Positions 18,667 to 38,376 of a stretch of DNA of 64,000 nucleotides are shown piece by piece; the first letter of the stretch is position 1; every line of letters begins with the position of its first letter. A program made the translations under genes and the position numbers. The notes beneath the pieces were generated by a model. It searched no databases. It worked only from the letters and a program-made list of their open reading frames with translations, and was not told the DNA's origin. The stretch covers positions 1,018,388 to 1,082,387 of the forward strand of contig NZ_CP007140.1 in NCBI RefSeq assembly GCF_000816105.1, in the 5' to 3' direction. The stretch comes from Thermococcus guaymasensis DSM 11113. Lineage in GTDB: Archaea; Methanobacteriota_B; Thermococci; Thermococcales; Thermococcaceae.

Positions 18667-19305
18667 TCAATACCACCTAACAGGAGTGTACATCCTGTAG
18701 AGATCCATGGGTTTGAATGGTTCCTCTTCTTCCTTTTTCTCAACAATCGGTTTTACGTAGACCATGCCCGGAACCTTCATTCCGGAGATTAGGTTCTCGG
18801 CCTTCTCCCTCTTGACCTCCTCAAGGATGTCACTGAGCCGTCCGAACTTCATTGCCCCCGTTGGGCAGGCTTCAACGCACGCCGGAGGTTTGCCTTCTCT
18901 GACGCGCTCGACGCACGAATCGCATTTCAGAACCACCTTGTATTCGGGCTCATATTTTGGATGACCAAAGGGACATGCCATCACGCACATGAGGCATCCA
19001 ATGCACTTGTTCGGGTTCAGGACAACGAAGCCTTCCTCTGTCTTGGATATTGCTCCCGTTGGACACGCCTTCATACAGGGAGCGTCTTCACAGTGCTGGC
19101 ATCTCATTGGGACGTTGAAGAAGTCGGCGACGACAACCTTCAGCCTTGGTTTCGGCGTTGGCTTCTCTTGGATTGCCCCAAAAAGGTCCTTGCTCATAGA
19201 ATGCTCGATGGCACAGGCCATTTCGCAAGACCTGCAGCCCATGCACTTTGATGGGTCGATATAGACTGTCAACTTGTCGCTCGCGGGCGATAGGATAGAA
19301 TCCAT
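18667..19305 (-). CDS. cooF: CooF-type polyferredoxin
   Basis: The 212-residue protein has four [4Fe-4S] motifs: CMGCRSCEMAC, CQHCEDAPCMKACP, CIGCLMCVMACPFGHP and CDSC...PACVEACP, the DmsB/CooF arrangement. It would carry electrons from CooS to the hydrogenase. The last 50 residues are charged and end in a short aromatic tail. ATG at 19305 follows GAGGTGATAACA. It is the first gene of the CO unit, 12 bases ahead of cooS, so the operon promoter lies upstream. Confidence 0.92.
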   Translation of the reverse strand: MDSILSPASDKLTVYIDPSKCMGCRSCEMACAIEHSMSKDLFGAIQEKPTPKPRLKVVVADFFNVPMRCQHCEDAPCMKACPTGAISKTEEGFVVLNPNKCIGCLMCVMACPFGHPKYEPEYKVVLKCDSCVERVREGKPPACVEACPTGAMKFGRLSDILEEVKREKAENLISGMKVPGMVYVKPIVEKKEEEEPFKPMDLYRMYTPVRWY

Positions 19306-19335
19306 TGTTATCACCTCGATTTAGGTTAAACAAAA

Positions 19336-19349
19336 CAGATAAAAGGAAG
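19336..19349 (-). promoter_or_regulatory. Weak TATA element of the CO operon
   Basis: On the minus strand TTCCTTTTATCTG lies about 35 bases before the cooF ATG, a fitting place for a TATA box with a start site near 19317. It departs from the TTTATATA consensus and lacks a good BRE, which would make transcription depend on an activator. Confidence 0.45.
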
Positions 19350-19352
19350 TCG

Positions 19353-19370
19353 TGTTCGGTAATTAGAACA
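19353..19370. promoter_or_regulatory. Dyad TGTTC-N8-GAACA, candidate CorR/CorQ operator, proximal site
   Basis: The 18-base element has perfect 5-base inverted arms and lies directly upstream of the TATA/BRE area of cooF, where archaeal activators that recruit TBP/TFB bind. A second dyad with the same arms lies 29 bases further upstream. Assignment to CorR is inference from position. Confidence 0.5.
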
Positions 19371-19381
19371 TTAACGGCCAT

Positions 19382-19402
19382 TGTTCTCCTAAATCTAGAA
19401 CA
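19382..19402. promoter_or_regulatory. Dyad TGTTCT...AGAACA, candidate CorR/CorQ operator, distal site
   Basis: The element has 6-base inverted arms TGTTCT (19382-19387) and AGAACA (19397-19402), sharing TGTTC/GAACA with the proximal dyad but with a wider spacer. It sits between the corR stop and the cooF promoter. The two dyads are about three helical turns apart, start to start. Confidence 0.5.
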
Positions 19403-19411
19403 CGGCCATGG

Positions 19412-20539
19412 TCATGTGTACAGGGACAGTAGCACTTTTTCTCTAACCTTGCGGTACTCCTCCAAGATGTTCCGTGCGAATCCTGTCAAAATAGTTACCC
19501 CCTTCTTTCTGCCTCCCCTCACGGTTATTAGAATGGACACCCCAAGCTTGTCCTCAAGCTCCTTTATCCTTTCCCAGTACGTCGATGGAGAAACGCCCAT
19601 GGCCTTACATGCGGCCCTGAAGGACTTTAGCTGGGAGATCAGCTCAAGGAGTTCCATGACGTCCGGTGGTATCTCAACCCCCTCCTGCGTCACAAAAGAA
19701 ACTTTGACTTTGGGAGTTAGTTGGACGGCGTTTTGACTCAGAGGGCACGGGGAAAAGAGTATCTTCCTGAGGTATTCGGTTGAGAGGTGCCGATAACTAA
19801 TACTGAGCTTTGAGTGGGGACATTTGGAAACATTGCCGTAGGGGTTTACGTAGAGGGTTTTGCAACTCTCCGGAGAGGGGGACGTCAGCAGGGTCACTGG
19901 ATAGTCGTCAAAGAAAACCTTGAGGGCATGGTACATGTATTTTACCCCGTAGTGCAGGCCCACCTCGGTGTTTTCTCTCTTCGCAAGTTTTTTCAGGAAT
20001 TCTTCCGTGGGGGCCTTCTCATAGAATCTCGGCCCCACTGTTATTCTAAGCCCCAGCCTCCGGCAGATGCCAATCAGGGAAAGTATTTCGGCAAAATCAA
20101 AGCTCAATCCCAGCGGTATGTACGCTTCAATGTTATCGAATCCGAAGGACAGCAGGTTTTTTATCGTTTGGACTGATGACGTCATTGCCTTTTGGGAATT
20201 CACTAAGATTATGAGAGCGTGTATGTTGTTTGAAATTTTTTTAAGCTGGCCGCTTCGAGCGACGTTCTTTAATCCGGAGATTGGAACAAACACATCAACG
20301 CGATCGCATAGTTCTTGAGTTTTATCCAGGATGACGTCTATCTTTGGATGAGAGAATGGGTTGGGGCATATTACAACGCACTCATCAAACCTGAAACCGT
20401 TTAAGTTCTCGGCCAGGGCATCCAATGCAAGGGGCGGTAGCATCATTCCCGTGCAGCCAAACTTTTCCCTCCACGGACAGATTATGCAACTCCCATCACA
20501 TTTTGTTGAGGGCTGGATTACCAAAAGGGTCATGCCCAT
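19412..20539 (-). CDS. corR: CorR-like CO-responsive regulator: radical-SAM-like domain fused to LysR/ModE-type HTH
   Basis: The 375-residue protein has two parts. Residues about 5-270 resemble a radical SAM protein: KCDGSCIICPW supplies C14, C18 and C21 in exact CX3CX2C spacing, and C226, GNVSKCP (C240) and C265 look like a twitch/SPASM-type second cluster region. The usual GGE motif is replaced by CPNPFSHP. Residues about 295-370 form a winged HTH of the LysR/ModE N-terminal class (SFRAACKAMGVSPSTYWERIKELEDKLG, then a wing with GGRKKG). A CorQ/CorR pair was reported as the CO-dependent activator of such operons in T. onnurineus; position and domains agree. ATG at 20539 overlaps the corQ stop; 20533 is an alternative. 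Confidence 0.82.
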   Translation of the reverse strand: MGMTLLVIQPSTKCDGSCIICPWREKFGCTGMMLPPLALDALAENLNGFRFDECVVICPNPFSHPKIDVILDKTQELCDRVDVFVPISGLKNVARSGQLKKISNNIHALIILVNSQKAMTSSVQTIKNLLSFGFDNIEAYIPLGLSFDFAEILSLIGICRRLGLRITVGPRFYEKAPTEEFLKKLAKRENTEVGLHYGVKYMYHALKVFFDDYPVTLLTSPSPESCKTLYVNPYGNVSKCPHSKLSISYRHLSTEYLRKILFSPCPLSQNAVQLTPKVKVSFVTQEGVEIPPDVMELLELISQLKSFRAACKAMGVSPSTYWERIKELEDKLGVSILITVRGGRKKGVTILTGFARNILEEYRKVREKVLLSLYT

Positions 20540-21111
20540 CACTCGAATATGACTTCAAATCCGCAGAAATGGTTGCCAAGTCCCCAGCAGTACACCTCTC
20601 TCGTAATGTTCTTGCCTATGAGGGCCTCCATGACCCCCTGTATGAAGCCGGCCTCGAAGTCACAGAGGGTTCTTCCCACTGGTGTGGTGTTGTAACAGCT
20701 CATGCACTCGTAGAGGTTGACCTTCATACGGTTGAAGGATTCTTCTACGATATCGACTATGCCAAGTTTCTGTTGCAGGAATACCCTTGGGAGATCGTCT
20801 ATGCTTCTGATCTCGTTGGTCTCGACGAGTTTACGGGCCAACCTATAACCTGCGCCCCTGAGAATGAGAATCCTTAGGGAGGGGCTGTATTTGAGCATAC
20901 CGTACGAGATCATCCTGAAAGTTCTGACGTATGTTGGATCCTCGGGGGATAGTCTTACAAAGAACGGCCTTTTTACGTTGAAGTATACCGCTGGATCAAG
21001 CTCGAGGTGCCCAACTTTTTCAGCGCACTTTTTTTGTTTCTTCTCCTCTTTGTACACCTCCCGCCACTTTTTCAGCGAGGGTTCAACTAGACAGGCAACA
21101 TCTTCCATCAT
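20539..21111 (-). CDS. corQ: CorQ-like V4R (4-vinyl reductase) domain protein, partner of CorR
   Basis: The 190-residue protein ends in a V4R domain: ECMSCYN (C136, C139), RTLCDFEAGFIQG (C150), and YCWGLGNHFCGFEV (C175, C183), the small-molecule-binding, metal-ligating pattern of this family. The N-terminal half is basic and helical and carries no known domain. The stop overlaps the corR start (TGATG), so the two are made together. In Thermococcus the pair was described as the CO sensor-activator; which of the two senses CO is not decided by sequence. ATG 21111 and ATG 21108 are both possible; GGTG lies just before. An AT-rich ATATATAA lies just upstream. Confidence 0.8.
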   Translation of the reverse strand: MMEDVACLVEPSLKKWREVYKEEKKQKKCAEKVGHLELDPAVYFNVKRPFFVRLSPEDPTYVRTFRMISYGMLKYSPSLRILILRGAGYRLARKLVETNEIRSIDDLPRVFLQQKLGIVDIVEESFNRMKVNLYECMSCYNTTPVGRTLCDFEAGFIQGVMEALIGKNITREVYCWGLGNHFCGFEVIFE

Positions 21112-21304
21112 TGGCACCAAATTATATATGATTTGATGTTTAACTAAAACCTTTTTGGTTGGCAAAGAAAGTCTTATTAACTCTCCTCCTCACAAACTCT
21201 TCGCGGGGTGGGATGACAGAACCCCTTTAACCGATGACATCAACTCCGCTGAAAATGCCCCTTTGGTTAAAAAGAGGCCTGAAAGGGGAGATTTGAGTTG
21301 CGAA

Positions 21305-24649: not shown

Positions 24650-24806
24650 ACAAAAACATGTCACTAGTAGTGATGAGGCCCCGGTTCCCCCGAAAGCCCT
24701 CCGATGAAGATTGGGGGAGGAAAAGTGGCTGAAGATCGCTTATGAGGTAGGTGAAAGCCTTTGTCCTAACTTGGGACGAGGATCTTGCATACAAGAGAGA
24801 AACATT

Positions 24807-24951
24807 ATGAGGAGGCGCATTTGTATCACAGTGAGCGAACAGATTTTGGCTTTTATTGAGGAGAACGACTTTCAGAAGTCGGCTTTTTTTGAGGCTGCAG
24901 CTCTTTTGTATATTGCAATGTGGAAAGGAGAACGCTCAGAATCGAAAATTC
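24807..24951 (+). pseudogene. Fragment of a ribbon-helix-helix (CopG/VapB-like) protein running into tRNA-Ile
   Basis: From an ATG at 24807 the frame gives about 48 residues with the ribbon-helix-helix pattern: strand RRRICITVS, helix EQILAFIEEND, then FQKSAFFEAAALLYIAMWKG (the usual SxFxxxA helix). The frame has no stop before the tRNA gene and continues through its antisense strand to 25061. A native gene would not end this way, so the 3' end was probably lost. It lies exactly at the 3' side of tRNA-Ile, the classic integration side for archaeal elements. Confidence 0.45.
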
Positions 24952-25029
24952 TGGTGGGCCCGCGGGGCTTCGAACCCCGGACCTCCCGCTTATCAGGCGG
25001 GCGCTCTGACCAGGCTGAGCCACGGGCCC
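24952..25029 (-). tRNA. tRNA-Ile (GAT anticodon)
   Basis: The minus strand folds as a full cloverleaf: acceptor GGGCCCG with CGGGCCC, D arm GCTCAGCCTGGTCAGAGC, anticodon stem CCCGC/GCGGG around loop CTGATAA with anticodon GAT, and T arm with GGTTCGAA. The CCA end is encoded. It follows tRNA-Glu after 10 bases, so both come from one transcript. No intron is seen. Confidence 0.97.
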
Positions 25030-25039
25030 GCGAGAATTC

Positions 25040-25117
25040 TGGTGCCCCGGCCGGGATTTGAACCCGGGTCGCGGGATCGAGAGTCCCGCATGATTGACCG
25101 GGCTACACCACCGGGGC
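25040..25117 (-). tRNA. tRNA-Glu (CTC anticodon)
   Basis: The minus strand has acceptor GCCCCGG pairing with CCGGGGC, D arm TGTAGCCCGGTCAATCA, anticodon stem CGGGA/TCCCG with loop CTCTCGA giving anticodon CTC, and T arm with GGTTCAAATCC. The CCA end is encoded. It is the first gene of the tRNA pair and reads codon GAG. Confidence 0.96.
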
Positions 25118-25144
25118 GCGTCCGAGATTAAGGGTGAGGGAGGG

Positions 25145-25159
25145 TTTAAAAAGTTTTCG
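25145..25159 (-). promoter_or_regulatory. BRE/TATA promoter of the tRNA-Glu/tRNA-Ile pair
   Basis: The minus strand reads CGAAAACTTTTTAAA, a strong BRE plus TATA box whose centre is about 32 bases before the tRNA-Glu 5' end, giving a start a few bases ahead of the mature tRNA. It overlaps the 3' end of the flippase gene. Confidence 0.75.
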
Positions 25160-26294
25160 GATCGAGGAGGAGCGTTGCGAGCAGGTGAGCAAAGACCCAT
25201 GCGATCCCTATTCCGGTTATGCCGTACTCTGGCAGGAGAAAATAACTAAGAGCCAGAAAAGACGAACCCCTGACGAGGTTTACTGCGAGAATTCTGCTAG
25301 GTTTGCCTTTGACGGTGAGGGCTGAAATGCCAAGATAAACGAACCCAAACGGTCCAAGTCCAAGGGCGATGAGCTTGAGCATTGGAAGGGCTTTGGTATA
25401 ATCCTCTCCAAAGATCGAGAGAACGTGTGTCCCGAGGCTGAAGACGCCCGCTGTTGCCAGAAGCCAGTAGACCAACACAATGACCAGTGATTTTCTAAAG
25501 AGTTTTCTATCGCCGTCCCGCATAAGAACGGTGGAGAGCGCGACTATTGGGGTCATCAGAAGGTTTCCCACTGTGAAGCCAACGTAGTAGTAGCCCGTCC
25601 ACTCCCGTCCAAGCTCCATGAGGATAATAGTGGGCATCAAGTAGACCGGAAGGACGTTAACGAGGGATCCGAGATAGTTGCTCATGGATATGGCAAAGCT
25701 CTCTCTTATGAACTTCAGGTCGAGAGTGGGGGAAATCTCTCCTTTAAACTCTCTCAGGCCAAAGGCCGTAGCCAGAGCAAGGCCCACTGAAGTTGCCAGC
25801 ACCATTCCCGCTGCTTTCAGTGCTCGGGTGGGGAGGAGAAAGAGGATCCTCAGGCCGTAGAGGAAGCTCATCTTGACGTATACATCCGTTCTCCGGAGGG
25901 GAATGGAAACGAAGCCAAGGGCGTTGTAAAGCGCGCCGAAGACGCAGGTCAGATACGCTCCGATAACAATTTCAGGTGCCTCAATGATGTTCCCGGGATT
26001 TGTCACCACGTATGCAGTTGTAAGGCCGATTGAGAGCAGTAACATTGTTATTATCGTTGTGCCGGTGGCACTTTTTCCGTATTCCTTGTAGAACCTAATT
26101 AGGCCAACGTTCAACCCGATTGTTGAGAGCGCAAAAACGAGGTTTATGAAAGATATCAGCGCAGAGGCGGTTCCTACATCCTCCGGTGAGTACAGCCTTG
26201 CGGCAAAAATCCAGAAAAAGAGGCCGCTTACGGCCATCACAATCGTTGCGAGACTCAGGTCTGTGGTGGATTTAAGGAGGGTCTTCAGCTCCAC
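25146..26294 (-). CDS. Polysaccharide/oligosaccharide flippase (MATE/Wzx superfamily)
   Basis: The 382-residue protein has about 12 membrane helices and begins LLKSTTDLSLATIVMAVSGLFFWIFAARLYSPEDVGTAS, the typical opening of Wzx-type flippases. It would move lipid-linked sugars across the membrane, supplying AglB whose gene lies just upstream and overlaps by 10 bases. The start is GTG at 26294. The C-terminus ends soon after the last helix, a little shorter than many flippases (about 420-480 residues). The 3' end carries the tRNA promoter. Confidence 0.82.
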   Translation of the reverse strand: MELKTLLKSTTDLSLATIVMAVSGLFFWIFAARLYSPEDVGTASALISFINLVFALSTIGLNVGLIRFYKEYGKSATGTTIITMLLLSIGLTTAYVVTNPGNIIEAPEIVIGAYLTCVFGALYNALGFVSIPLRRTDVYVKMSFLYGLRILFLLPTRALKAAGMVLATSVGLALATAFGLREFKGEISPTLDLKFIRESFAISMSNYLGSLVNVLPVYLMPTIILMELGREWTGYYYVGFTVGNLLMTPIVALSTVLMRDGDRKLFRKSLVIVLVYWLLATAGVFSLGTHVLSIFGEDYTKALPMLKLIALGLGPFGFVYLGISALTVKGKPSRILAVNLVRGSSFLALSYFLLPEYGITGIGIAWVFAHLLATLLLDPKTF

Positions 26295-32013: not shown

Positions 32014-35000
32014 ATGAATAAGCGCAGGAAAGCGCAGATCTTTAGTTTGTTGTTGGCATTTTTAATGCTGGCTTCAGTGATTCCAGGGACGTTCCTCAAG
32101 CCAGTGAGTGCAGGACCGACGATTGCCATTGAAAGTGCTGATTTCTACCTGAACCAAACTAGCAATTCAGTGTCAAAGCCCTTCGTGGGCTATCCAGCCA
32201 ACCTGTCAGTGAACGTCAGCGGAAACCTCAACTTCAACTTCCAGATTCTCGTGTACTACAACGAGTCTGGAATACTGGTTAAAAAGGCCTCCAGCGGTCT
32301 CATAAACATTGGTGACGATGGCTGGGAGGTTGTTGATTTCTCACTGCCCGCTATTCCAAAGAACGCTACACACGTAGTAATCAAGGCTCAGGTAGTTGAC
32401 ATAGTTGATGGTCAGCTCGGTGTTGTCACAGAGGACGTTGAGGTCGTAGAAGTTAGCAACAACGTGGTTACCGGATACGGCAACGTTAACATCGTTAGCA
32501 CGGTTCCATACAACGCAAGCGGTACCCCTGACTACAGCAAGGCCTTCAAGAACATACCGTTCAACCTCACTCTGGAAGTTGACTTCAACGACACCCTTGT
32601 TAGTGGGTATCCAGGTCTCCTCCCGAACGAGACCGAGCTCAAGGCTTACCTGTACGCAGGATCAAACAAGATTGCGGAGGGCATTGTTAACACCTCCCTT
32701 GCAACGGCTCCCAATGACTACTTCATTAACTTCACCAACGTAAAGACATCCTACGTCGGCAACCTAACTCTTATCCTCCACGACACCAAGCATGACCTTA
32801 CCTACACGATCCCGCTCAACGAGAGCGGAAATGCAGTTACTGTCTACGACTGGTGGCTCAACGTCACTTACGAAATTCACGGAAACTGGGCCAACCCCAG
32901 CGTTAACGGTGTCATCAAGCTCGTTCCATTTAACGTGACGTTCAACATAACCTCAAACAGTAGCGTTGGTAAACTTCTCCTAAATGCCACTGGTACTTTC
33001 AACCTCGAAGGTGCTTCAGAAGCTACACCTATGAGCGGAACCTTCAACCTGACCAACGGTTTCAACCAGACTACGATCTACAATGTCTCAGCCGACCCAC
33101 TCGTGGTGACCTTCAGCCTTCCGGACTACGGTGTTGAGAGGACCGTTGAGATAACGGTCTATGACTGGCAGATCAACGTTGATGCCGACATCTACATCTA
33201 CGACAATACCTCCGAGCCGTACAACCTCACCTCGGACGAGAGTGGCTACGGATTCTACAAGGACATACCAGCAACTATGCTCGTCAAGTTCAACTACACT
33301 AACACAACCCTCGGTCTCATAGACATAAACAGCAACGCTACCGTTGAGGTCTACTACGGCGACCAGCTGATATGGAGCAACAACTCGGTTCCGGTCACGA
33401 ACGGTGAGGGTCAGATCTTCGTCAACCTCACCAACGTCAGCTTCGTTCCTGATGACGCCACCAAGAAGATAAGGGTCGTCGTCAAGGACAACAACTACGC
33501 CAAGTGGGGCGATAAGGACATCACGGTCTACGACTGGGGAGTGAACGCTGACCTTGAGGACGTTTACATCTTCGGCAACTCAACATGGTCGTCTGATCAC
33601 TTCACCAAGAACATCCCGGCTAACTTCACGTTCAGGGTTTCATTTGAAAGGTATGATGTCTTCACCGAGCCAGTTCATGATGCCTGTGGATGTGTGATAG
33701 GATACGAGAACGTTACTGAGCCAGCAGGGGCTCTACCGTTCGTTCCGAAGACCCAGCTCAACGTCACAGTACAGGGTCCAGGCGTTGACGAGTGGTTTAT
33801 CCTCAACGTCACGGGCGTTAACAAGACCTACTCAATATCGAAGCTCATCACCTTCACTGACACTGGAGAAGCTACCATAACCGTTACCGACACCGAGTAC
33901 GGCAGGAGCGACAGCTTCACCGTTGACATTGAGGAGATCGACACAGAGCTGGGTAACTATGTGGTGTACTCATTTGGTACTAACGTTGCCCACTGCAAGA
34001 CCATAGACGATGATGCTTTCTACGCCCACGTCCCGGCGAACCTCACGTACGACATATACGTTGGATTCCCGATCGAGGAAGCCTACGTCAACGTGACTTT
34101 AGTTGGCCCAGACGCCACCTACGGTCCGTTCGAGTACTACGTCAACACGACCAACGGTGGACTTGACGTTTACAGTGATTACTCGATAATACACCTCAAC
34201 GTCAGCAAGCTGATGCAGTTCAACGAGAGCGGTGAAGTGAAGTTTGAGTGGGAGATGCTTATCTTCGCCAACCACAGCACCTACAATACAACAATAGAAG
34301 GTGGCTCGTACTATTACTATGGATGGTACAATACGATAGACGTTGAAGGATGGCCAGTAATCCATGCCGCTGTTGGTGATCCATGGCCAGGGGGAGGAGA
34401 CCACTTCTACATTGGAGTCCCAGATGACCTTCACATCAAAGGATATTATAACTTCCCATTCCCAGCCAACGCCAACATCACCGTCCATGTTACTGGCCCG
34501 AACTACGACAAGTGGATCAACAAGACCATCACATATGAGAAGGTTTGTGAGGAAGGATATGACTTTAGTGATTTATTCCACAATGACTTATATGACCTCC
34601 AGTTCAACGAGACCGGAAAGGTCACCGTGGACTGGGAGGTCACCTACTGGGACGACAGCCTCAACCTCACGCCGTTCACCGTTAGCGATGTAGAGACCTT
34701 TGAGGTCGAGCCGTGGTACGTCCAGTTCGAGGTCTCACCGGACAGCCTCACAGTCGGCGAGGATGCCTTCCTCGGCATAAACGTTGGTGTGTTCCCGAAC
34801 GTCGACGTGCTTCGGGACAGGATGTTCAACATCACGGTCGAGCTACCGAACGGGCAGAACTTTACTGCCACCGCCTACGGCGCTTGGAATGACATGGACG
34901 CCTACATTAAGATCCCGGCCGAGAACATAACTGTCCCAGGTGTGGCCAAGATAACCGTCGCTGACGAGAGCGGCCTCGTCAAGGCCGTCCAGTACATACC

Positions 35001-38000
35001 GGTCTACCCGAACGTCCAGTACAACAAGAAGTACATCGACGTGAAGGTCACCCCGGAGGAGACCTACAAGTACCAGACCGTTAACCTCACCATCGACCTC
35101 CAGTACATGGGAGTCAGCGGTAACTGGATCTACCCGATCGACGCCGACAGCATGGCTCAGGTAGTTGTCTACTCCGGCGACGAGGTCGTCTACAACGAGA
35201 CCATACCGATGCACAACAACAACGGCCATGTTACTATAACCGGCGTTGCCTTCGACGCCGTTGGCCCGATCACCGTTGAGGTCAAGGACCTCACCGACAG
35301 CAGCATTGCTGGTGCAGCCGCCGTTGAAGTCAAGCCGTGGGATGTCGACGTTACCTTCGAGCCTCAGAAGGTCTACAAGTACATACCGGTCAACCTCAGT
35401 GTCGTTGCCACACCGAACGTCCCCGCGATAAGCGAGGACGACCTCAGGATCTACGTCAACGGCGAGCTCTACACCGGCGAGGAGTTTGAGTTCCTCCCGC
35501 TTGAGGACACCAACTTCACCGTCGCCGTCTACTACGTCAGTGACTTCGGCAACGAGTACCTCATGTACAACGAGACCTACACCGTCAAGGTGCTCGACTG
35601 GGGCATCGAGGTTGACACACACCCGCTCTACGTCCACCCGCAGTTCGAGAACAGCCTCAAGTTCCCGTTCAGGTACGTTGACGAGAACGGAGATCTCGTC
35701 CCGTTCACCGGAAAGGCCAACGTTACCCTCGTCCTGCCCGACGGCCAGAACTTCACAGGAGCCTTCGACGTTGTCAACGGCGAGGGTGTCATCGACTTCG
35801 GCAAGGCTGTAATTAGTGAGACCGGAAACGCTACCCTCACAGTCGCCCAGTTCATAGGCGACTACAACGTCACCAAGGAGGTAGAGATACCAGTTGACGA
35901 CCTCGTCACGATAACCAAGGTCGAGCCCACCACGATCTACGCCGACGTGCCGACCGAGATCAAGGTCTACGTCCACTCAGGTGCCAACGACTACGAGAAC
36001 ATAACCGTCACCCTCAACGGCAAGAAGCTCAAGTACCTCGGAAGCGGTGTCTATGCAGAAAACTTCACACTCGCCGCAGGTAACTACACGATAACCGTCT
36101 ATGACAGCATCTACAACGTTACCACCACCGAGAACATCACTGTTGAGGGCTGGCACCTCGTCATGAGCGTTACTCCTGACGAGTTCACCGCTGCTACCCT
36201 CAGGACGATCACCATAGAGGTCAAGGCCGTCCTTGACAGGAACGAGTCAATAATCGCCAAGATTGACGATGTCTTCACCGGTGTTGCCGCCTTCGACGAC
36301 GTTGGCCTGTACCCGATCGAGACCGAGTTCACTGTTGAAATGGAGGAAGGTGTTGGTACAACAACGATTCAGCTCTACGCACCGGACGAGGGCAACTACA
36401 CCATCAGCGGTAAGGACGAGTACAACAAGACTGCCGAAGTCACGATACCGGTCAGCGCACCGGATCTGAGCAAGCTTGCTTGGGTCTACGTCACGATCAA
36501 GAAGGAGGGTACCCTTGAGTCCCCGAACGAGACCACCGTCATCTACGTTGCCTTCAACAACAGGGAGGGACCGTACGTTCCGGCTTACGACTTCGTCAAC
36601 CACAAGAGCGTTAGCGGAACTACCGAGGCAGTATTCCCGCTCGCTCCGGTCGAGAAGTTCAGCCTCTACGTCATTGCACTGCCACTGGAGATCGCCAAGG
36701 ACGTTCCGTACATCGAGGACATCTCGAACTTCACCAAGACCTGGGACGTCCCCAAGACCTACTACGAGGTTACCCCAGAGGTCACTCGCGTGGACGAGAT
36801 AACCTGGAACATCACCGTTGAGGTCGACGGAAACGTCACAGTCTACACCTACACCTACAAGCCACCTATGGCACCGGGTGTCATCCCGATCGAGCCGCAG
36901 GCCTCATCAGTTTGGGGCAACGCCATCTACACCCCGGTGACCAAGGAGATATCCGAGGTTACTCCGCTCGAAGGATTCAGCGAGACCATCAAGCTCACCC
37001 CGACCCTTGAGGTCGAGCGCGTGACGCCCATAGACATCCAGCCCGCCAAGGAGGGCTCATACTTCGAGCTCCTTGCCAAGCTCTACGTGGAGAACGCTGA
37101 GGAGCAGTTCGAGCAGCTCTTCAGTGAGCGCGTCGTTCCGAAGGTACAGGCTATGGACTTCCTTGAGGAGAGCGAGAAGGAGAACCTCATCAGCGAGCTC
37201 AAGGAGATGGCAGGCAACGTGAGCACCGCTAACGGTCCACTCGCCGGTAAGACCATTGAGTTCCACATCGACAACGAGGCCATTGCCTACGTCGAGCCGA
37301 CTAACACCACCACCGACGAGAACGGTACCGCAACCTTCAAGGTCTACTCCAAGGCCAAGGTCGGCATGACCCCGGACGAACTCTTGACCCTCATGGGTGC
37401 AGTCAACGTCTGGGCCACATACGACGATGTGACCAGCAACACCCTGACCGTCAAGTTCGGTGGCGTTGGCAGCATCGCTGGTATCGTCATGGACGAGAAC
37501 AACAACCCAGTCGCGGGAGTTGAAGTCGTCCTCTACACCTTCAACGGAACCGAGTGGGTTCCGGCAGTCGACTACAACGGCAACGTGCTCAAGGCAGTTA
37601 CCGACGTGCACGGCCGCTATGAGATCGACGGCATCCCGGCTCTGCCGCCGCTCAGCATCTACAGGGCCGTTGCACTCGTGGCTGACACTCCGGCGGGATT
37701 CGCTGAGGCAGCCGTCTCACCGTTCCAGACCTCGCCGGTGAACATCGTCATAACCGCAGAGGGAACTGAGGCCACAGGCCTTGGTGCCTTCCTCAGCGAT
37801 GCCCAGAGCCACGATGTCAAGTTCGTCACAGGCAGCAACATCTTCAACCCAGACTACTACGCCAAGGACTTCCTCGTCGAGTACATCGGTGCCAAGCCGG
37901 TCTACACTGACAAGAGCATCAACGTCGAGGCACTCACAGAGAAGGACATGATAATAGCGATCGGAGGTCCGAGTGTCAACAGCATCACCGCCCACTACCA

Positions 38001-38376
38001 GGAGATGGCCCCGGTCAAGATGGTCACCAACGACGACGGCTCAATAAGCATCATCGTCGACAACGAGACTGTCGCCAACTGGACTGCCCCGAGCCCATGG
38101 TGGAACGTTAGCAAGGGCTACTGGGTCGTCCAGAGGGTCGTCGATCCTGACACCGGTGCAGTGGTCTACATGATCTACGGTACCGACGCTGACAGCACCT
38201 GGGCCGCAGCCTACTACTTCAGCGAGCACTTCGGCGAGCTCCAGGGTAAGGACTACGTCATCGGCTACTGGGAGGACACCGATGGCCAGATCTTCGGCGA
38301 TGCCCTTAAGTTTGCCAGCGACGACAACAACGGATTCAGCCCGACCGACGAAATCGGCGTAATAGTTGAGGGCTGA
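32014..38376 (+). CDS. Giant secreted surface protein with Ig-like repeats and S-layer-like C-terminus
   Basis: The 2120-residue protein has a signal peptide (basic start, hydrophobic run, cleavage after residue 33). Residues about 35-1790 consist of beta-sandwich repeats joined by a recurring linker of the form TVYDW or VxxW at about residues 278, 381, 506, 898, 1108, 1195 and 1378. Dozens of N-x-S/T sequons point to dense N-glycosylation. Residues about 1820-1905 look like a carboxypeptidase-regulatory-like domain (GIVMDENNNPVAGVEVVLYTF). Residues about 1926-2120 resemble the archaeal S-layer family C-terminal domain with GGPSVNS and TWAAAYYFSEHF. It may be a surface layer component or a filament; no membrane anchor follows. 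It is the main likely target of AglB. Confidence 0.88.
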   Translation: MNKRRKAQIFSLLLAFLMLASVIPGTFLKPVSAGPTIAIESADFYLNQTSNSVSKPFVGYPANLSVNVSGNLNFNFQILVYYNESGILVKKASSGLINIGDDGWEVVDFSLPAIPKNATHVVIKAQVVDIVDGQLGVVTEDVEVVEVSNNVVTGYGNVNIVSTVPYNASGTPDYSKAFKNIPFNLTLEVDFNDTLVSGYPGLLPNETELKAYLYAGSNKIAEGIVNTSLATAPNDYFINFTNVKTSYVGNLTLILHDTKHDLTYTIPLNESGNAVTVYDWWLNVTYEIHGNWANPSVNGVIKLVPFNVTFNITSNSSVGKLLLNATGTFNLEGASEATPMSGTFNLTNGFNQTTIYNVSADPLVVTFSLPDYGVERTVEITVYDWQINVDADIYIYDNTSEPYNLTSDESGYGFYKDIPATMLVKFNYTNTTLGLIDINSNATVEVYYGDQLIWSNNSVPVTNGEGQIFVNLTNVSFVPDDATKKIRVVVKDNNYAKWGDKDITVYDWGVNADLEDVYIFGNSTWSSDHFTKNIPANFTFRVSFERYDVFTEPVHDACGCVIGYENVTEPAGALPFVPKTQLNVTVQGPGVDEWFILNVTGVNKTYSISKLITFTDTGEATITVTDTEYGRSDSFTVDIEEIDTELGNYVVYSFGTNVAHCKTIDDDAFYAHVPANLTYDIYVGFPIEEAYVNVTLVGPDATYGPFEYYVNTTNGGLDVYSDYSIIHLNVSKLMQFNESGEVKFEWEMLIFANHSTYNTTIEGGSYYYYGWYNTIDVEGWPVIHAAVGDPWPGGGDHFYIGVPDDLHIKGYYNFPFPANANITVHVTGPNYDKWINKTITYEKVCEEGYDFSDLFHNDLYDLQFNETGKVTVDWEVTYWDDSLNLTPFTVSDVETFEVEPWYVQFEVSPDSLTVGEDAFLGINVGVFPNVDVLRDRMFNITVELPNGQNFTATAYGAWNDMDAYIKIPAENITVPGVAKITVADESGLVKAVQYIPVYPNVQYNKKYIDVKVTPEETYKYQTVNLTIDLQYMGVSGNWIYPIDADSMAQVVVYSGDEVVYNETIPMHNNNGHVTITGVAFDAVGPITVEVKDLTDSSIAGAAAVEVKPWDVDVTFEPQKVYKYIPVNLSVVATPNVPAISEDDLRIYVNGELYTGEEFEFLPLEDTNFTVAVYYVSDFGNEYLMYNETYTVKVLDWGIEVDTHPLYVHPQFENSLKFPFRYVDENGDLVPFTGKANVTLVLPDGQNFTGAFDVVNGEGVIDFGKAVISETGNATLTVAQFIGDYNVTKEVEIPVDDLVTITKVEPTTIYADVPTEIKVYVHSGANDYENITVTLNGKKLKYLGSGVYAENFTLAAGNYTITVYDSIYNVTTTENITVEGWHLVMSVTPDEFTAATLRTITIEVKAVLDRNESIIAKIDDVFTGVAAFDDVGLYPIETEFTVEMEEGVGTTTIQLYAPDEGNYTISGKDEYNKTAEVTIPVSAPDLSKLAWVYVTIKKEGTLESPNETTVIYVAFNNREGPYVPAYDFVNHKSVSGTTEAVFPLAPVEKFSLYVIALPLEIAKDVPYIEDISNFTKTWDVPKTYYEVTPEVTRVDEITWNITVEVDGNVTVYTYTYKPPMAPGVIPIEPQASSVWGNAIYTPVTKEISEVTPLEGFSETIKLTPTLEVERVTPIDIQPAKEGSYFELLAKLYVENAEEQFEQLFSERVVPKVQAMDFLEESEKENLISELKEMAGNVSTANGPLAGKTIEFHIDNEAIAYVEPTNTTTDENGTATFKVYSKAKVGMTPDELLTLMGAVNVWATYDDVTSNTLTVKFGGVGSIAGIVMDENNNPVAGVEVVLYTFNGTEWVPAVDYNGNVLKAVTDVHGRYEIDGIPALPPLSIYRAVALVADTPAGFAEAAVSPFQTSPVNIVITAEGTEATGLGAFLSDAQSHDVKFVTGSNIFNPDYYAKDFLVEYIGAKPVYTDKSINVEALTEKDMIIAIGGPSVNSITAHYQEMAPVKMVTNDDGSISIIVDNETVANWTAPSPWWNVSKGYWVVQRVVDPDTGAVVYMIYGTDADSTWAAAYYFSEHFGELQGKDYVIGYWEDTDGQIFGDALKFASDDNNGFSPTDEIGVIVEG

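Follow-up and report, generated by a model that had tools for sequence, protein, structure and literature searches.

The corR-cooF gap and its inverted repeats

In the window, the whole 64,000-nucleotide stretch of the Thermococcus guaymasensis DSM 11113 genome that was analysed, corQ, corR, cooF and cooS follow one another in this order on the minus strand. A gap of 106 nt separates the corR stop codon from the cooF ATG, and the original prediction had placed in it two inverted repeats with the same arms and spacers of 8 and 11 nt. Both were found to be exact, and the features of this part of the locus are as follows:

18667-19305, minus strand: cooF, gene 1 of the CO operon, with Fer4 domains; the ATG at 19305 was set from the alignment of 16 gaps
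19412-20542, minus strand: corR, encoding the proposed binder, with an HTH_1 match (E 5e-9) of ModE type
20539-21111, minus strand: corQ, encoding the partner of CorR, with a V4R domain (E 7e-10 for a scan that took 21123 as the start)
19353-19370, minus strand: proximal dyad TGTTC-N8-GAACA, centre 19361.5, exact in the window
19382-19402, minus strand: distal dyad TGTTC-N11-GAACA as first described, exact in the window and present in 1 of 16 genomes
19398-19404, minus strand: distal outer half-site CGTGTTC; 12 of 16 genomes have TGTT in exactly this register

The CGTGTTC of the outer half-site is inverted to the GAACACG of the proximal dyad, and exactly 40 nt separate TGTTC from GAACA. These two dyads were the sole matches to TGTTC-N6..14-GAACA in the window, where 0.67 would be expected by chance and where at least two arose in 16 of 100 shuffles. 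Across the genome, TGTTC-N4..16-GAACA occurred in 21 places versus nine for a reversed control, a density at which a pair within 50 bp would be unusual. As the dyad count alone was indecisive, conservation had to decide.

The C-terminal HTH of CorR that matched Pfam HTH_1 also matched the ModE repressor domain TIGR00637 (E 4e-10, below the cut-off of that model) and, by profile, the solved ModE-like structure 2ijl (E 1e-7). Residues 1-265 of CorR carry a CX3CX2C motif (C15, C19 and C22) that was invariant in all 11 aligned proteins, as were C227, C241 and C266, and a weak match to Pfam Radical_SAM was seen in four of the 11 (best E 5e-4). For the V4R domain of CorQ, the nearest NCBIfam model was transcriptional factor MsvR, at E 2e-11, which is below its cut-off. 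A predicted structure of CorR, made from a two-row alignment, had a mean pLDDT of 45.6 and was not used.

Two further observations were made elsewhere in the window. Open reading frames on both strands of positions 24711-25200 give PRGFEPRTSRLSGGRSD-like peptides, a pattern familiar as an artefact when tRNA genes are translated. On the plus strand, an open reading frame of 2120 amino acids at 32014-38376, following glycosyltransferase-like genes, appeared by eye to encode a large secreted repeat protein.

An invariant nine-base core upstream of cooF

Of the 94 family genomes, a protein search with CorR identified the gene in 16. The same 16 were recovered by a CorR profile search of 115 genomes of the phylum, in which none of the 21 further genomes outside the family yielded a CorR; CorQR presumably also occurs in Korarchaeum. 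In all 16 corR-positive genomes cooF lies immediately 3' of corR. A comparison of these gaps, proposed together with the original prediction, showed that one half of the proximal dyad is invariant:

19351-19359, minus strand: proximal core half-site CCGAACACG, identical in 16 of 16 corR-positive genomes

Over alignment columns -60 to +29, the core, with its nine columns, formed the sole invariant run; elsewhere invariant columns were scattered and included a T and an A of the distal arms as well as the initial T of the proximal left arm. In every one of the 16 gaps, the cooF start codon follows 54-57 nt after the beginning of the core and 52-55 nt after that of its GAACA. The spacing of the core is fixed relative to the TATA-like box described below but not relative to the corR stop codon, which lies a variable 20-83 nt upstream. 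Sequence outside the core was far less constant, with 14-17 of the 38 positions of the outer-arm interval identical to the window in other clades. The proximal left arm was perfect in 5 of 16 genomes (the window genome G000, G051, G087, G088 and G063), carried one mismatch in G020 and had two or three in the other ten. Among the latter are G013 and G026, which belong to the lineage of the published T. onnurineus promoter and have two mismatches each. Its first T was retained in all 16.

A second dyad in a fixed register

The claim of an 11-nt spacer in the distal dyad did not survive the comparison as a conserved form, since the right arm GAACA was present in 1 of 16 genomes, the window alone, and reads AAACA in its two closest relatives; the N11 pairing was therefore dropped. 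Arms with an 8-nt spacer were instead slid along the upstream sequence and scored out of 10 over six lineages, which brought out the following register:

19385-19402, minus strand: distal dyad in the conserved N8 register, here TGTTC-N8-GGAGA, centre 19393.5

This register, at -45 (45 nt before the core GAACA), scored 7.83, the next best reaching 5.0 and all registers averaging 2.56 (sd 1.08). The score was matched in 0 of 5000 shuffles, and without the window clade it was 7.8, again with 0 of 5000, although such shuffles overstate significance because the aligned sequences are related, and the register and arm controls, which keep the relatedness, are limited. Among all 1024 five-base arms TGTTC ranked first with six lineages and joint first with TATTC with five. 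Of the spacers from 4 to 14, a spacer of 8 scored highest with six lineages and was tied with five by a spacer of 13 at -18, the right arm of which is the core itself. With a DNA helical repeat of 10.5 bp per turn, the 32 bp between the distal and proximal dyad centres amount to about three turns, and the 21 bp from the proximal centre to the centre of the TATA-like element to two, both by arithmetic.

The distal dyad is not equally well kept in all lineages. Its right arm fits the N8 form poorly in the window clade (GGAGA, GAGAA), and in G087, G088 and G063 the register falls within the corR coding sequence, where the similarity may stem from protein conservation. Its left arm is lost in G013 and G026 (three mismatches), so that the two-dyad geometry is weakest in the very lineage, that of the published T. 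onnurineus promoter, in which experiments were done.

That the two dyads are a functionless chance pair would agree with the shuffled window counts and with the restriction of the N11 form to the window. Such an explanation is, however, contradicted by the 9-mer invariant in 16 of 16 genomes and by the fixed register of the second dyad, and is considered extremely improbable. The element is better defined as CCGAACACG together with a distal N8 dyad in phase with it.

Association of the motif with corR

Exact occurrences of CCGAACACG were collected from six corR-positive genomes, giving 31, of which 30 could be read; the one left out is a place in G020 for which there was no locus. A TATA slot with seven or more A/T letters out of 8 marked all six cooF sites and not a single one among the remaining 24 occurrences; the six also scored 6-10 for the distal dyad and had a Shine-Dalgarno-like sequence. 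Coverage by an open reading frame was useless as a filter, since spurious open reading frames cover four of the six cooF sites. A wider CorQR regulon was considered and rejected, the exact motif standing in promoter context at cooF alone in these six genomes (30 of 31 occurrences read).

A second CODH/cooF-like type, about 62% identical, was present in 18 of 94 genomes, and loci were obtained for 15 (L034-L048), none of which had corR alongside. GAACACG was not found within 300 nt upstream of cooF at any of these 15 loci. One of them (L038) is carried by G051, a genome that also has a corR-positive operon with the motif. The four second-type promoters that were inspected look BRE- and TATA-rich. 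The motif thus accompanied corR at 16 of 16 corR-positive loci versus 0 of 15 CODH loci without adjacent corR.

It had also been noted that no such arm pair is seen before corQ, which was taken to suggest that corQR is not itself under the control of the site. Consistent with this, GAACACG and CGTGTTC were absent from the 250 nt before corQ in the window and 13 other corR-positive genomes (14 of 14), a set from which G083 (tblastn match outside corQ) and G082 (no corQ match) were left out, and corQR is apparently not controlled by this site. The corQ promoter itself (21139-21165, minus strand, in the window) differs from the coo promoter in showing a conserved A-rich BRE-like ACCAAAAA, followed in relatives by a TATA-like element. 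CAAAA, CGAAA or similar preceded a TATA-like element in 14 of 14 scanned genomes, a count that was selected for, as the search pattern had been chosen for an A-rich BRE.

Perfect TGTTC-N8-GAACA dyads elsewhere were read at 12 loci. Two are inside other genes, and ten, assigned by eye, stand before ribD-like (L116, L117, L119 and L127) or ribU-like genes (L118, L120-L123 and L128). These ten were considered as CorQR sites and judged to belong to another regulator. Such sites recur across Thermococcaceae and may be the RbkR operator. RbkR is mentioned for P. furiosus in PMC10746257. It could be argued that the coo dyads likewise belong to some other, general regulator of the Thermococcales whose sites have similar arms, the riboflavin regulator RbkR for instance, given that the riboflavin-gene dyads are perfect, have an AT-rich centre, occur in several genomes and are present also in the corR-less G022 and G056. 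Most of the riboflavin-gene sites, however, read TGTTCYAWWWWTRGAACA or near to it, a form that none of the 16 coo sites fits (the window site reads TGTTCTAATTACCGAACA), and the coo core is far more conserved than its symmetric arms and confined to corR-positive loci. A shared regulator of this kind is therefore judged very unlikely.

The core promoter and the adjacent EnfR site

The near dyad had been described as lying directly upstream of a poor TATA element, and this arrangement was confirmed, the dyad with its following CG ending 6 nt before TTTTATCT (19344-19337). The features downstream of the core are as follows:

19345-19350, minus strand: BRE slot ACTTCC, without a purine-rich BRE (mean purine fraction 0.29 over 16 genomes)
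19337-19344, minus strand: AT-rich TATA-like element TTTTATCT, which in all 16 genomes starts 6 nt downstream of GAACACG
19312-19347, minus strand: region equivalent by position to the 36-bp EnfR site of T. onnurineus, from the placement of the 36-mer in G013 and G026

From -2 to +12 of the core, a stretch that takes in the BRE slot and its surroundings, AAA occurred in none of the 16 genomes. The alignment would put the TATA-like element 32-39 nt before the start codon in the window; the authors of the EnfR study put a TTATA 15-19 bp before it.

Because CCGAACACG directly adjoins the BRE slot, it might be a core-promoter element such as an unusual BRE, and because it lies downstream of corR, co-transcription with corQR is conceivable and it might function at the RNA level, as part of the corQR 3' end. 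Against this stand the 15 other CODH promoters of the family, which do without the motif, its dissimilarity to the VRAAA BRE quoted in PMC5937170, and its spacing, which is fixed to the TATA-like box while the corR stop codon wanders. Either role is judged very unlikely.

The same promoter is bound by a repressor in T. onnurineus. According to PMC10570040, EnfR represses and binds the codh promoter of that species, with a footprint from -44 to +3 relative to the cooF start and a 36-bp site. The published 36-mer is present letter for letter in G013 and G026 and starts 3 nt after GAACACG, so the dyads are the upstream neighbour of the EnfR site and not part of it; in the window genome EnfR would be expected to bind at the equivalent region. 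The dyads could nevertheless have been thought to belong to the operator of EnfR, a Tfx-family repressor, or to bind it, as EnfR binds the T. onnurineus coo promoter (PMC10570040) and a TFX_C protein was found in all 12 genomes tested, the window genome included. The footprint, however, starts downstream of GAACACG and leaves the dyads outside, the 36-bp site is without TGTTC or GAACA arms, and TFX_C is present also in the corR-less G001 and G007, whereas the motif accompanies corR. An EnfR operator extending over the dyads is therefore regarded as highly improbable.

A predicted CorQR operator

The original prediction had read the arrangement as the layout of an activator site, and this reading is supported by the invariant CCGAACACG, its fixed distance to the TATA-like element and its absence from the 15 CODH promoters without adjacent corR. 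A lack of conservation in related gaps, named with the original prediction as one of two outcomes that would refute it, was not observed. On sequence evidence, the feature probably serves CorQR as operator in activating the coo (CODH/hydrogenase) operon, and the association of motif and gene, together with their relative position, suggests that CorR binds the dyads. In the proposed mechanism, the C-terminal ModE/LysR-type winged HTH of CorR would bind the CCGAACACG half-site, the weaker half paired with it at N8 spacing, and also the second N8 dyad three helical turns upstream, which would set two dimers on one face of the DNA beside the core promoter. In the presence of CO, CorQR would probably offset the missing BRE by recruiting TFB/TBP, and it may compete with EnfR, the footprint of which starts 3 nt downstream of the core. 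The corQR genes, with a BRE/TATA promoter of their own and no operator, would not be autoregulated by this site. The dimer geometry, the recruitment of TFB and the competition with EnfR are suggested by spacing and position.

CorR is perhaps a fusion of a radical-SAM-like or Fe-S domain, as the candidate CO-sensing part, with a ModE-type HTH. More tentatively, and with the odds rather against so complete a picture, CorQR may sense CO and activate without haem: its CorR, radical-SAM-like, rich in cysteine and fused to a ModE-type HTH, would act from two dyads on one DNA face, stand in for the BRE that its one dedicated promoter lacks, and compete directly with EnfR. In archaeal hydrogenogenic CO metabolism, the activator named as responding to CO is CorQR, still a little-understood sensor. 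The 9-bp core, the in-phase second dyad and the BRE-less promoter make its CO sensing directly testable in vitro. They also offer a means of tuning H2 production and a way to study how a single archaeal promoter accommodates both EnfR, a repressor, and an activator.

Comparison with known systems

The haem protein CooA, of the CRP family, is the CO-dependent activator of bacterial coo operons, which its dyad precedes. The coo site described here resembles the CooA site as a CO-dependent activator dyad before a CODH operon, but the proteins differ, CorR having a ModE/LysR-type HTH and CorQ a V4R domain. LysR-type boxes are palindromes with a T-N11-A core; the arms of the dyads are 8 apart, in a comparison limited to arm spacing. 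The EnfR operator shares the T. onnurineus promoter with the dyads, but is a repressor site over the TATA region, downstream of and adjoining them, with no arms in common.

The primary CorQR paper is reportedly that of Kim et al. (2015) on Thermococcus onnurineus, and no published CorR binding site was recognised in the literature searched, which did not extend to that paper. In T. onnurineus the same regulator pair stands by the same operon and is reported as an activator, PMC4791640 stating that CorQR activates the CODH cluster; the pair of that species is also mentioned in PMC6557876 and PMC13077300. The coo site would be of an ordinary kind, that of an archaeal activator operator, although it has apparently not been mapped before. 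A close parallel in layout is the site of TFB-RF1 of Pyrococcus, an activator that, according to PMC5937170, recruits TFB at promoters where a weak BRE and a good TATA element are immediately preceded by a palindrome. Both sites are palindromic, lie at a conserved distance and are conserved among Thermococcales, and at coo a palindrome stands at a fixed 6 nt from a TATA-like element that is paired with a weak BRE. The TFB-RF1 motif TCTGAANTTCAGA belongs to an unrelated activator and is a single palindrome, whereas coo has two dyads 32 bp apart, and TFB recruitment has been demonstrated for TFB-RF1 (PMC5937170), whereas at the coo site it is suggested by the similar layout.
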